Shown here: piece by piece, positions 2,457-22,811 of the stretch
How positions within the stretch are numbered: the first letter of the stretch is position 1
Layout of the letters: the number at the start of each line of letters is the position of its first letter
Source: Verrucomicrobiales bacterium
Lineage (GTDB): Bacteria; Verrucomicrobiota; Verrucomicrobiia; Verrucomicrobiales; DEV007
Assembly: GCA_029213195.1 (NCBI GenBank)
Contig: JARGNI010000007.1
Span: 1 to 64,000, forward strand
Direction: 5' to 3'
DNA: 64,000 nucleotides
Notes under the pieces: generated by a model
Databases searched by the model: none
Seen by the model: the letters and a program-made list of their open reading frames with translations, nothing else
Told to the model about the DNA's origin: nothing
Translations under genes and position numbers: made by a program

Positions 2457-3328
2457 TCGCTCTTCTCTCCTTCCGGTGTTGGCACCTCATTCCCGAGACG
2501 GTAGGTCAACCGGACTTCTCCCGCCTCTTCCTTGTCGACCGTGAGTCTGCCTTCGTCCCATTCTCCCCGATCCGAAGTCACTCTCTGGCGCCAGGCCTCT
2601 GGAATCTCGAGGACTAGGGAAGAATTCATGTCGCGAAGGGTGAACTGCTGTTGCAGTGTTTCCCCTCCATTCTCCAGCCAAAGGCGTTCTTCGATGAGGA
2701 GACTTCCTTGCTCGTAGAGAAACTCGGGTTTTCCATCGATCAGCCGCACGCCGAAGAAGGAGGCTTCGCCGCTGCCTCCCGCAGTGCCGCCGAGCGGGGG
2801 CCGACCTCCTGCGAGCAGGAAAAAGGGAGAAGGAGGAGATTCTGGCTCGGAATCGAGGGGCACGTCTTTCTCACTGCCTTCAGCTCGCTCGCCTTTGTCG
2901 ATTTCGGTTTCCGCTGAGGCGGTCTCGTCGCCATCCGCTTCATCGGTTGGGGCTTCAACTGGATCCGGCTCGAGATCCAGCACCCCCAGCAAACGACAGG
3001 TGAGGGGATCCCAGAAAACGGCGTAGCGACTGGAATTGGCTCCGATCGTGAACACCCCTTCGAGAGTCGCCGTTTCGGACTCGCTTCCCGTTGAGGCGTG
3101 AACTGCGGCGAGCGTTTCGTCTACCAGGAAATTGGGAACGGTCTTCCGCGAGATCGACAGCTTCGGCACGACTCCAACTCCCGCGAACTCCCCAAGTGGC
3201 TTCTCCGATTTCTCCGATTTCTCCGATTTCTCCGTATCAGGTGTTTCCTCCTGCGCTCGAACGTGGCCGGGCCAAGCCAACGCGAGTGCGAGAAAGCCAG
3301 GAAGCAAACAAAGACGGGAAAACGGCAT
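2453..3328 (-). CDS. Secreted low-complexity protein of unknown function
   Basis: 291 residues. A signal peptide ends near 'HVRAQ' and is followed by an acidic linker with an EKS tripeptide repeat, encoded by a 9-base tandem repeat at about 3201-3236. A second Glu/Asp-rich linker lies around residues 125-170. Between and after the linkers are strand-rich segments ('NSSRYAVFWDPLTCRLLGV', 'SFFGVRLIDGKPEFLYE'). These recall the first module of verrucomicrobial and planctomycete secreted proteins in which a 'crude oxide/haem' region follows (weak resemblance, my inference). It is coupled to the downstream gene by an ATGA overlap. Function is unknown. Confidence 0.65.
   Translation of the reverse strand: MPFSRLCLLPGFLALALAWPGHVRAQEETPDTEKSEKSEKSEKPLGEFAGVGVVPKLSISRKTVPNFLVDETLAAVHASTGSESETATLEGVFTIGANSSRYAVFWDPLTCRLLGVLDLEPDPVEAPTDEADGDETASAETEIDKGERAEGSEKDVPLDSEPESPPSPFFLLAGGRPPLGGTAGGSGEASFFGVRLIDGKPEFLYEQGSLLIEERLWLENGGETLQQQFTLRDMNSSLVLEIPEAWRQRVTSDRGEWDEGRLTVDKEEAGEVRLTYRLGNEVPTPEGEKSE
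3201..3236. repeat. 9-bp tandem repeat coding for (EKS)n
   Basis: Four units of the nonamer TTCTCCGAT, the last one imperfect (TTCTCCGTA), lie inside the secreted protein gene 2453-3328. They encode the EKS-type linker just after the signal peptide. A change of one unit would add or remove three residues without a frameshift. Confidence 0.85.
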
Positions 3329-18905: not shown

Positions 18906-20258
18906 TCAAAGCATCTCGGAGAATCCGGAAAGACGTCGCAGGACGACCTCTTTTCCAAGCAGGGACAGCACCGGAACGAGGTCCGCGCCCGAGGTGCTGC
19001 CCATGACACCAACCCGACAGGGGAACATCAGCGCCCCCATTTTGACGCCGAGGGACTCCGCCCCCGCGACAATCCCGGCCTTGATGGCGTCATCGCTCCA
19101 GTCTTCGACCTGCTCCAGCCCTTCGCGGAGCGCCGAAACCGCTTCCGCAGCGCCTTCGCGACTTTTCACTTTCTCGACGGAACTCGGGTCGTAGGTCGGG
19201 AGGTCGACAAAGATCGTTTCGATGATCGCCGGAATCTCGGACAGCAGCTGAACCCGGTCCCGGGCGAGTTCGAGCGCGGCGGGGATTCGGTCGTCGTCGA
19301 CAGGGAGACCAGCCTTTTCGAGGAAGGGACGACTCGCTTCGAGGAGGGCTGCAGGAGAGAGCTGCTTGAGGTGTTCCGCATTGACCCACTTGCACTTCTC
19401 GAAATCGAACTTCGAATTCGACTTCGTGATACCACTGAGGTCGAACTTGCCGATGAGCTCTTCCATGGAGAACACATCCTGGTCTTCCTTTCCTGACCAT
19501 CCCAGCAAGGCCATGTAGTTGTTCACCGCATCGGCAAGAAACCCGCTCTCGCGGTATTCGTGAATCAGGGCGCCCTGGTCGCGTTTGCTCATCTTGGTCC
19601 CGCTCGGATTGAGGTTGAGAGGGATATGAGCAAAGACCGGCGGCTCCACGCCGAAAGCCTCGAAGAGCGCGAGGTGCTTCGGAGTGTTGGAAAGGTGGTC
19701 CTCACCGCGAATGACGTGAGTGATGCCCATCTCGATATCATCGACCACATTCACGAAGTGAAAGATATAGCCTCCATTGGGACGTTTGATCACGAAATCG
19801 GGATTGGCTTCGACCTCCTTCTTGAGCTCGGCATCATAGCGACGGGACCCGGCAGCCTTCAGGTTGGTCGTCACATCGCCACAGACTTCATCGTGCACCG
19901 TGAATTCCTTGTCCGGAACTCGAAAGCGAATCGCGCCCTCATCTTCATAGACGAGCCCGGCTTCTTCGAGACGGGAAAGATAGCGATCGTAGATCGCGAC
20001 TCGTTCGCTCTGATTGTAAGGGCCACGATCTCCGCCGACGCCCGGACCTTCGTCCCAATCCAGCCCCAGCCACTCCAGGCCATCGAGAATAATCTGCATC
20101 GATTCCGTTGTGCTTCTCTCCGCATCCGTGTCCTCGACTCGAAGAATGAACTGCCCTCCATGGTGGCGAGCATAGAGCCAGTTGTAGAGAGCCGTGCGAG
20201 CTCCACCGATGTGGAGAAAGCCGGTTGGGGATGGGGCAAAACGGGTGCGAACACTCAT
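18906..20258 (-). CDS. gltX: Glutamyl-tRNA synthetase
   Basis: 450 residues. The class I HIGH-type motif appears as 'GFLHIGGARTALYNW', the 'FILRVEDTDAERS' block binds the tRNA end, and the second signature is 'GTKMSKRDQG'. 'VIRGEDHLSNTPKH' and the C-terminal anticodon-binding helices are present. It charges tRNA-Glu (in many bacteria also tRNA-Gln, which Glu-tRNA amidotransferase then corrects). No zinc-binding cysteine set of the E. coli type is visible. Upstream lies the MITE-like element, 52 bases before the start, so the element sits in the likely promoter region. Confidence 0.96.
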   Translation of the reverse strand: MSVRTRFAPSPTGFLHIGGARTALYNWLYARHHGGQFILRVEDTDAERSTTESMQIILDGLEWLGLDWDEGPGVGGDRGPYNQSERVAIYDRYLSRLEEAGLVYEDEGAIRFRVPDKEFTVHDEVCGDVTTNLKAAGSRRYDAELKKEVEANPDFVIKRPNGGYIFHFVNVVDDIEMGITHVIRGEDHLSNTPKHLALFEAFGVEPPVFAHIPLNLNPSGTKMSKRDQGALIHEYRESGFLADAVNNYMALLGWSGKEDQDVFSMEELIGKFDLSGITKSNSKFDFEKCKWVNAEHLKQLSPAALLEASRPFLEKAGLPVDDDRIPAALELARDRVQLLSEIPAIIETIFVDLPTYDPSSVEKVKSREGAAEAVSALREGLEQVEDWSDDAIKAGIVAGAESLGVKMGALMFPCRVGVMGSTSGADLVPVLSLLGKEVVLRRLSGFSEML

Positions 20259-20299
20259 GGGGAGGAAAGTGCCGCAAAGCTGAGGTTCGTCAATCGCGG

Positions 20300-20310
20300 A
20301 TCAAGCTGCC
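20300..20310. repeat. Left direct repeat (target-site duplication) of the MITE-like element
   Basis: ATCAAGCTGCC is found immediately before the left terminal inverted repeat and again at 20517-20527 immediately after the right one. Identical 11-bp flanks are what a staggered insertion leaves. Confidence 0.8.
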
Positions 20311-20516
20311 GGGTGTGAATGAAAGTGTGTGCTATGCGGGGTCCTTGAGACCGCTGTTCCTGCCTCGGCGGCTTTGTCTGAGTTGGAGGGACAACGTCCT
20401 CGTTGTCCGCAATCTATGGGCTGTCGGACGTGGGTGAGCGAACGGACTGGGTCCCACGGACCGCGGGGACGCGGTCCCTCCAAATCGGATTACCATCCTT
20501 CACTTTCATTCACACC
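20311..20516. mobile_element. MITE-like non-autonomous palindromic element (206 bp)
   Basis: Terminal inverted repeats GGTGTGAATGAAAGTG (20312-20327) and its exact complement (20501-20516) bound the element, with 11-bp direct repeats outside. Inside are two hairpins. The first is 20389-20408, stem GGACAACG, loop TCCT. The second is 20458-20477, stem GGACCGC. An outer inverted repeat TTGGAGGGA / TCCCTCCAA spans 20383-20483. There is no transposase gene in it, so mobility would need a transposase acting in trans. Small palindromic elements with this 'GGAGGGACAACG' core are, to my recollection, repeated in related genomes; I see no second copy in this window. It lies between gltX and the esterase gene. 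Confidence 0.75.
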
Positions 20517-20527
20517 ATCAAGCTGCC
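20517..20527. repeat. Right direct repeat of the MITE-like element
   Basis: An exact second copy of ATCAAGCTGCC, flanking the right inverted repeat. With the copy at 20300-20310 it marks the probable insertion point. Confidence 0.8.
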
Positions 20528-20549
20528 TGCCGCGCAGGAGCAATCTGCC

Positions 20550-22664
20550 TCACTTCGCCTTTTCTGTTCCCATGGCCTCTCGGATCTGAACTTGCTTGGC
20601 GGGCCATTCGAAGGCCTTGGCGTGCTGGGTGAGGTAGCTCCAGTCTTTGGGCTTTGCCGAGTAGATGCGCAGTTGACTCCGCTCTCCCACCATGGCTGCT
20701 ATTTGAGGAAGATCGGTGAAGCGCAGCACGTTGAGATACGTGGGCCCGTCGCGATGGCTCGCAGGAAGCTCATGAAGATCGAGGCGATGAATATCGGGCT
20801 CGAACAAAGCGGCATAGAGGGCATTGCCCCCCATCGCTCCAGAGGCCTGGACCCACAGCTGAGGCTCCGCGCTTCCTTCCATCTCTCGGAAAGCCTGGAT
20901 CCCGCGACGGATATCCCAGACCCTCATCGCGTCCAGGGTCTGCCCAAGAAGCGCGAATCGCCGACGAATATGAATCTGCTCCTTCGCGTCGTCGGTCCAT
21001 GCGGTAGGCCCAATGCCGCGAGGCGGAAGATAGAGCATTCCCCACTTCTGGGCGGCATGCATCTTCCTCTCCGAGGCGAAAGCGACTTCATCCAGGTCGG
21101 GCAGGTTTTGTTCGGGGAAAGCTTCGGGAAACGCCGCGCCGATTCCACCCAGGAAATCCACCCATCCCTCCTCATCCAAGGCATTGATGACGACCAGATC
21201 CAACTCGGCGAGAGAAGTGCCCTCACGAGCTGCCAGGTAAAAGGGCAGTCTCACTCCGCCCTGGCTGTCAAAACTCCACTTGGAGAAGGCGATCCCATCG
21301 CGCTCTGCGGAATACTCCTGCGAGAGGGACAAATCCTCATTGCCTCCGGGCCATCCTCGGAAACTGCGGGAACTGAGTCGGTTCATGATCAAGGCCCGCT
21401 CCGAGACCCAATCGCTTTCGGTCGTTGCGACCTGGAGACTGCGCGGAACCCGACGGGTGAAGTAATCATCAATGAAGGTGTTCCGTTGATTCTCCGGAAT
21501 CTCGGAGAGCACTCTCAAGTCATCGGGCTCATACGGTTTCGGGGCGATCGTGTTTTCCATCTCGAAATCAATCGACTTCCCCTTGAGGTGTCGTTCGAAC
21601 CAATGAAAAGCAGGAACCCGAAGCGGCTGAGTGTCCTTGTGCCCGCCCTGGTAGAGCGCAAGCCCGAGCCGATCGCGAGCACCCAACTTCTCGTAGACCC
21701 CCCTCGTTTTCGAAAAGACATCGACCACGCCATCGAGCGGGAAAATCCGATCGTCATCCGTGTTCACGATCAGGAGCGGACGGGGAGCAATCAAGGACGC
21801 CAAAAGCGGAAAATCCCACCGATAGGTATTGACCATGAACATGCAATCGCAATGCCCTTCGATGCACCCACCGACAACATGATTCGCCATCGAGGTAATG
21901 CCTGCGACTGGCACGGAAACTTGGATTCGTTCGTCCAGTGCCGAGATCCAGAAGGTGTAGGCACCACCGCCGGAACGTCCGGTCGCGCCAATCTTATCCG
22001 CATCGACCTCTTCGCGAGTTTCGAGATAGTCCAAAGCGCGGATCGAGTTCCAGGCCTCGACGCCTGCCGGGGTGTAGCCCCGGGCATTCCACCACCATTT
22101 CCCATTCCGATGCGTGCCGTGGTGCTCTCCCTCGATCTCACCCAACTGGAGGGTATCGATCGTGAGACAGTTGTAACCGTTTCTCGCGAACAAGTTCCCA
22201 TGATGCTGATAGTGCACTTTGTTTCCGTAGCTGACTCCGTCGATCTTCACTTTCCCATGTCCGCACAGGTAGAGAACGGTGGGCAGGGGACCTTCCGCTT
22301 TCGCAGGTCGGTAGAAATTTGCGGTGACGTAGAGTCCGGGCCGCGACTGGAAAACGATGTTCTCGACGATGACCCCGTCACGTTCCACGGTTCCCGTGAC
22401 CTTGGGCTTGAGAGGGGATCGAGCCGGCAGCGGTTGGAGGCCGAGCATCTCGAAGAGTTGCCGACGGAGCATTGCCTTGGTCGAGGGCCAGTCCTCGGCG
22501 TTCTCGATGAGCGCACTGGTCCGGGCAGCCACCTTGCGGGTCTCCTTTTCAAAGTAGGACTCCAACATGGCGTCCCCCCGTGTGGATTCGCCAGGAATGT
22601 CCGAAAAATCGGCTCCCCACAACAGGCTGCTGGTGAAAAGAAGAACAAGAAAGAGTCGACTCAT
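20550..22664 (-). CDS. Secreted AXE1-type esterase / alpha-beta hydrolase
   Basis: 704 residues from the ATG at 22664, which places a signal peptide ('MSRLFLVLLFTSSLLWG') at the N-terminus. The catalytic serine is in 'GRSGGG' (Ser231). A likely catalytic Asp is in 'LIVNTDDDRIFPLDG' and His in 'LYQGGHKDT'. The first 400 residues resemble acetyl xylan esterases (AXE1/CE7 type), and the last 300 form a second domain of unknown role. It would remove ester groups from plant or algal polysaccharides outside the cytoplasm. Its neighbours tdh and gltX are unrelated, and it is divergent from tdh by 147 bases. Confidence 0.85.
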   Translation of the reverse strand: MSRLFLVLLFTSSLLWGADFSDIPGESTRGDAMLESYFEKETRKVAARTSALIENAEDWPSTKAMLRRQLFEMLGLQPLPARSPLKPKVTGTVERDGVIVENIVFQSRPGLYVTANFYRPAKAEGPLPTVLYLCGHGKVKIDGVSYGNKVHYQHHGNLFARNGYNCLTIDTLQLGEIEGEHHGTHRNGKWWWNARGYTPAGVEAWNSIRALDYLETREEVDADKIGATGRSGGGAYTFWISALDERIQVSVPVAGITSMANHVVGGCIEGHCDCMFMVNTYRWDFPLLASLIAPRPLLIVNTDDDRIFPLDGVVDVFSKTRGVYEKLGARDRLGLALYQGGHKDTQPLRVPAFHWFERHLKGKSIDFEMENTIAPKPYEPDDLRVLSEIPENQRNTFIDDYFTRRVPRSLQVATTESDWVSERALIMNRLSSRSFRGWPGGNEDLSLSQEYSAERDGIAFSKWSFDSQGGVRLPFYLAAREGTSLAELDLVVINALDEEGWVDFLGGIGAAFPEAFPEQNLPDLDEVAFASERKMHAAQKWGMLYLPPRGIGPTAWTDDAKEQIHIRRRFALLGQTLDAMRVWDIRRGIQAFREMEGSAEPQLWVQASGAMGGNALYAALFEPDIHRLDLHELPASHRDGPTYLNVLRFTDLPQIAAMVGERSQLRIYSAKPKDWSYLTQHAKAFEWPAKQVQIREAMGTEKAK

Positions 22665-22811
22665 GGAGTCAGTGTAGAGATTTCCCCGGAAATCCCTCAA
22701 GCGAATTCCCATGGGAAAGACGTGTCCACTCCGAGGAGTTCATAGCGTCCCTCCTGTATGACGGAGCCGCCTCTCGACTTTGGAACCGCATTCGATCATC
22801 TTGTTCTGATC

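Follow-up and report, generated by a model that had tools for sequence, protein, structure and literature searches.

Results

The window, the whole 64-kb stretch of DNA analysed here, carries on its minus strand gltX, which encodes glutamyl-tRNA synthetase (18906–20258; PF00749, E 2.4e-74; PF19269). Upstream of it on the same strand lies a gene for an alpha/beta-hydrolase of the glucuronyl esterase/AXE1-like type (20550–22712; PF22244, E 6.5e-10; PF05448). Between the two genes, at 20311–20516, is a 206-bp MITE to which neither a coding capacity nor a strand was assigned. It is separated by 33 nt from the stop of the hydrolase gene and by 52 nt from the start of gltX, a distance correctly given in the original prediction.

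The MITE separates two direct repeats of ATCAAGCTGCC (20300–20310 and 20517–20527, plus strand). Its left terminal inverted repeat (TIR), GGGTGTGAATGAAAGTG (20311–20327, plus strand), pairs with the right end at 16/17 positions, and the right TIR (20495–20516, minus strand) reads inward as GGTGTGAATGAAAGTGAAGGAT and fits the family consensus GGTGTGAATGAAAGTGaAGGAC. Within these ends, GGTGTGAATGAAAGTG at 20312–20327 and its exact complement at 20501–20516 form an inverted repeat of 16 bp without mismatches. An additional G at the left end (GGGTGTG...) is without a partner on the right (CACACC followed by A). Since the right ends of relatives read CACACCC, the true inverted repeat starts with GGG and is at least 17 bp long. 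MITEs have TIRs at both ends, measure about 70–400 bp and carry no transposase gene; here, 206 bp are bounded by 16/16 TIRs and contain no transposase ORF. The two exact 16-mers of the TIR had no further matches in the window. Elsewhere in the window, at positions 3201–3234, the 9-bp unit TTCTCCGAT is repeated perfectly in tandem (3.8 copies).

The interior contains two REP palindromes. REP 1 (20385–20408, plus strand) consists of a GGAG tail and the hairpin GGACAACG-TCCT-CGTTGTCC, and REP 2 (20458–20481, minus strand) is inverted, with a GGAG tail and the hairpin GGACCGCG-TCCC-CGCGGTCC. Both have a perfect 8-bp stem, a 4-base loop and a directly attached GGAG, and no other hairpin in the 64 kb is built in this way. 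As two inverted REPs with a tetranucleotide tail, they are a REPIN-like pair. The exact 16-bp TIRs, the 11-bp direct repeats and the two internal hairpins had all been predicted with correct coordinates and letters.

The host genome (G000; 5.9 Mb, 115 contigs, 95% complete) contains other copies, as the original prediction had proposed to check. In pattern searches, from which all copy counts in this genome derive, the TIR 16-mer gave 23 matches with at most 2 mismatches vs 0 for the reversed control, and on inspection these resolved to about 13 related loci. Besides the copy in the window (C97), they comprise C83, C47, C58, C72 (89 bp), C85, C90 and C89, and single or partial ends at C92, C111, C113, C77 and C88. 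The C83 copy was 93% identical by genome BLAST and 94% identical to C97 over 199 bp. At least three types of interior lie behind the same ends: that of C97/C83 with C47, C89, C92, C111 and C113, that of C85/C90/C77/C58, and that of C72/C88. At C83 (L124, about 1414–1985), two different MITEs of the family form a tandem. CGTAATTGG precedes the first and separates it from the second, and CGTAGTTGG follows the second; this arrangement is apparently the product of repeated insertion at one 9-bp target.

Copies at different sites have their own target duplications, whose lengths we counted from the GGG terminus. Exact 9-bp duplications were found in G004, G038 (C16, C63 and C134), G057, G002 and G108, and duplications matching at 8/9 positions at C58, C72, C85 and C90, partly by reading the flanks. 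The duplication is 10–11 bp long at C97 and C89. That of C97 was equalled in 0/2000 shuffles, and those of most other members in few or none; the duplication of the G042 copy was not significant vs shuffles (P 0.08). The letters of the predicted 11-bp duplication are thus exact, but its length is an outlier because the usual duplication of the family is 9 bp. It may represent a 10-bp duplication with an altered terminal base.

The gltX neighbourhood was located in 29/34 genomes of the genus, host included. In three of them in which both neighbour genes aligned (G007, G022 and G025), the spacer is short and contains no such element, and at the level of the locus these are empty orthologous sites. 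The prediction had held that the same 206 bp at every orthologous locus in distant relatives would speak against a MITE; this is not the situation in the genus, and the MITE reading stands with both the copies elsewhere and the element-free loci. The other part of the proposed comparison, an exact pre-insertion site with one ATCAAGCTGCC, was not found among the gltX spacers of genus-mates because these are too divergent and no relative is close enough. Different repeats evidently accumulate in this spacer, since that of G018 and that of G031 (L109 and L107) hold other palindromic REP-like sequences, such as AAGGAGGGGTGACATTCCTGTCGC in the latter.

When 84,980 species genomes were scanned with GTGTGAATGAAAGTGNNGGAC, six records were returned, five of them from Verrucomicrobia. 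The remaining match, in Flavobacteriaceae (L037), lacks a partner end and probably arose by chance, about two chance matches being estimated for the scan. Single TIR matches in several relatives (e.g. G071 and G026) were also taken as chance, and the surroundings of the one in G071 read as protein-coding. The end sequence of G027 had no match in a plasmid collection, and the TIR pattern had none in viral contigs.

Although the original prediction regarded the parent transposase as unknown, it is identifiable as a member of the ISKra4 family through the ends found in G027 and G053. In the genus-mate G027, the left ends read GGGTGTGAATGAAAGTGAAGGACA and the left end runs on toward transposase sequence, while at three right ends (C8, C28 and C21) the GGGTGTGAAGGAAAGTG end follows immediately past the stop of the transposase gene. 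The reading-frame pieces match NF033572, the ISKra4 family transposase (E 5e-24, 3e-10 and 9e-7), and these ISKra4 copies with the ends of the MITE are decayed. In G053, of the same family, a 1,495-bp element has an intact 461-aa ORF (NF033572, E 1.5e-45, under the curated cut-off) and related 24-bp ends, GGGTGTGATTAAAAGTGGTGGGCA on the left and GGGTTTGATTTAAAGTGGTGGTCA on the right, where the contig ends. Of the transposases compared, that of G053 is nearest to the G027 fragments (43%, 41% and 30%; 41–43% across the two conserved pieces), and no ends of this class were found at the loci of the others. The G053 ORF is open (L129, C426, 477–1862) and reads GSGAVGG in place of the GSGETES of its G027 relative; for this reason its activity is doubtful, and by its sequence the protein is possibly inactive. 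The proposed search for an insertion sequence with the same ends was therefore successful in G027 and, with related ends, in G053, but not in the host. There, no NF033572 match was obtained in an assembly that is 95% complete in 115 contigs, so the host's own mobiliser is either absent or unassembled.

Duplications of 9–11 bp and GG-type ends occur in other transposase families too. The MITE could thus belong to another DDE family, e.g. of the IS256, ISLre2, IS4 or IS1 type, with convergent ends, and ISLre2 matched the same G027 fragments, albeit more weakly. We consider this improbable, as NF033572 is the best match of the transposase pieces, and the same ends adjoin ISKra4-type sequence at the three right ends in G027 and in G053.

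The REPs are not confined to the MITEs. In the host genome, 92 occurrences of the strict motif GGAGGGACNNCGTCC (vs 2 for the control) group into 39 clusters. Of these, 32 lie outside and 7 within elements of the MITE family, vs 0.02 expected from total element length, although these 7 are not independent because several copy one another. G038 has a different REP (GTGGGGCAGAT...ATCTGCC) with 19 occurrences, eight in four MITEs and 11 outside, and G057, G002 and C58 have yet other hairpins, which are GTAG-tagged. REPs and MITEs are therefore separable yet repeatedly combined, since the REPs occur both inside and outside the elements and vary between genomes. The two predicted internal hairpins are thus present, and the prediction is extended in that they are REP palindromes of a type with copies outside the MITE as well.

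REP tandem arrays were also observed in the host. At C113 (L118, 11734–12400), a REP pair has grown into a tandem array with a 124-bp period, which adjoins the right end of a MITE on its inner side; part of the array reads N. On C57, GGAG-tagged REPs form an array with a 167-bp period (L119, 99932–100602), with no TIR in the stretch read, and another with about 97-bp spacing (221281–222335).

Two inverted GGAG palindromes inside the MITE, the 92 REP sites and three RAYT-like Y1_Tnp matches in the host genome could also suggest a REPIN/BIME-type repeat mobilised by a RAYT (Y1 tyrosine transposase), with the outer inverted repeats incidental. Several observations make this very improbable. Target duplications are not known from Y1 transposition, whereas members of the MITE family have duplications of 9–11 bp. 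The 199-bp homology of C97 and C83 runs across the REPs to the outer ends. Related MITEs with the same ends have different or no obvious REPs, and the 89-bp C72 has none. Furthermore, no REP of the GGAGGGACNNCGTCC type lies within 1.5 kb of any of the three Y1_Tnp genes, and none of them is a REP-flanked cognate RAYT. A RAYT was rejected as the mobiliser on the basis of the duplications, the REP-free C72 and the lack of REPs beside the Y1 genes.

The gltX side of the insertion contains a putative -35 box, TTGACG (20288–20293, minus strand), 17 nt from the left end of the MITE and 35 nt from the gltX start. TTGAC is found 34–36 nt before the gltX ATG in 12/12 genomes (35 nt in 10/12), and a second conserved stretch lies between this box and gltX, just 5' of the ATG, in the 12 genomes. 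The core promoter of gltX is probably intact because the MITE ends 17 bp upstream of the conserved box. It had been predicted that the element may supply or disturb this promoter. Neither is evident: no sigma-70-like promoter was found in 20200–20620, and the TTGAC box stands intact between the MITE and gltX.

TnGBS-type elements insert 15–17 bases upstream of -35 boxes, and part of the ISKra4 group has the same upstream-of-promoter specificity, with predicted promoters 13–17 bp from the junction (Guerillot et al., PMC3942029). The 17 bp at gltX lie within this 13–17 bp range upstream of a sigmaA -35 box. We compared 57 element ends with 3000 shuffles for TTGACA-like boxes at 15–17 bp. Boxes with at least 5/6 matches to TTGACA were present at 7 of the 57 ends vs 0.70 in shuffles, and those with at least 4/6 at 18 vs 5.9; at both thresholds, 0/3000 shuffles attained the observed count. 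However, three of the matches (C97, C85 and G002) had already been noticed when the test was made, and the 17 ends retrieved later did not give a significant result by themselves (3 vs 2.0, P 0.34; 1 vs 0.25, P 0.22). For this reason, promoter-proximal insertion is likely for the MITE at gltX but suggestive as a rule of the whole family.

In the sense of the transcript, the inserted DNA folds at -94.2 kcal/mol (z -7.0 vs shuffles), a value far beyond the shuffles, such as any long inverted repeat would give. That the element is a selected terminator/insulator or attenuator of gltX, its repeats due to chance, is hardly credible: it sits between two same-strand genes and has this strong RNA fold, but genus-mates lack it, copies lie at unrelated loci, Rfam has no match to it, and the one terminator-like site in 20200–20620 is weak and on the opposite strand.

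Discussion

In this study, we found a known kind of element whose lineage is newly identified. The 206-bp MITE has ends in common with ISKra4 sequences, a staggered-insertion footprint and multiple copies, and is absent from orthologous loci. With its TIRs, its flanking duplication and the 94% identical copy at C83, it was annotated as an ISKra4-type MITE. Its parent is very probably an insertion sequence of the ISKra4 family (p-MULT4, prokaryotic Mutator-like); the MITE was likely inserted close to a promoter, and its cargo is REPIN-like.

An ISKra4 transposase acting in trans would bind the GGGTGTGAATGAAAGTGaAGGAC ends and, by the promoter-proximal targeting of its group, insert the MITE 15–17 bp upstream of the gltX -35 box, after which the core promoter would stay working. 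The insertion is probably near-neutral for gltX initiation. An insertion upstream of the core promoter would account for the lack of obvious damage after 217 bp entered the region ahead of an essential gene. As RNA, the inserted DNA is predicted to fold into a strong nested hairpin located between the hydrolase gene and gltX, and it may dampen read-through from the former. The REPIN-like GGAG pair appears to have travelled with the MITE at least once, as judged from the C97 and C83 copies.

These findings name the parent of a MITE family, and in the literature searched we found no described MITEs for Verrucomicrobiales. The gltX site clearly exemplifies what is apparently an insertion of the ISKra4 type immediately ahead of a core promoter. 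A DDE-type MITE and REP palindromes, although they are unrelated classes of repeat, move here as a single unit. We propose tentatively, as a possibility rather unlikely on balance, that promoter-targeting MITEs with ISKra4 ends have repeatedly served as vehicles of REPINs in Verrucomicrobiales and that genera loaded their own REP pairs independently. If so, REPs would gain a second, RAYT-independent route of spread and would land beside promoters.

The p-MULT elements have inverted repeats of 18–39 bp and duplications of 8–9 bp (Guerillot et al. 2014, PMC3942029). The MITE shares with the ISKra4 group a terminal G/C residue, near-perfect inverted repeats, duplications that are mostly 9 bp in the family, and insertion 15–17 bp upstream of -35 boxes (PMC3942029). 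Unlike the members of that group, it is only 206 bp long, lacks a transposase and has a 10–11 bp duplication, and no ISKra4 transposase was detected in the assembly of its host.

The cargo resembles REPINs and the GTAG-superfamily REPs (PMC3116915, PMC3733652 and PMC2817692) in its two inverted palindromes with 8-bp stems and a 4-base tail, and in that the REPs of the host are present in many copies and in tandem clusters. It differs from them in that the tail is GGAG, the pair is enclosed by the TIRs of a MITE and no cognate RAYT was identified. We found no description of REP cargo in a MITE of a DDE transposase in the literature searched, which is not proof of absence. Another repeat class inside a MITE is known from BrickBuilt of Porphyromonas gingivalis (PMC4596501), whose cargo is a 23-bp minisatellite, whereas the MITE at gltX carries a REP pair and that at C113 a tandem array of such pairs with a 124-bp period. 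The ISKra4-type MITE is a known kind of element, of which the form with REP-pair cargo is a variant.
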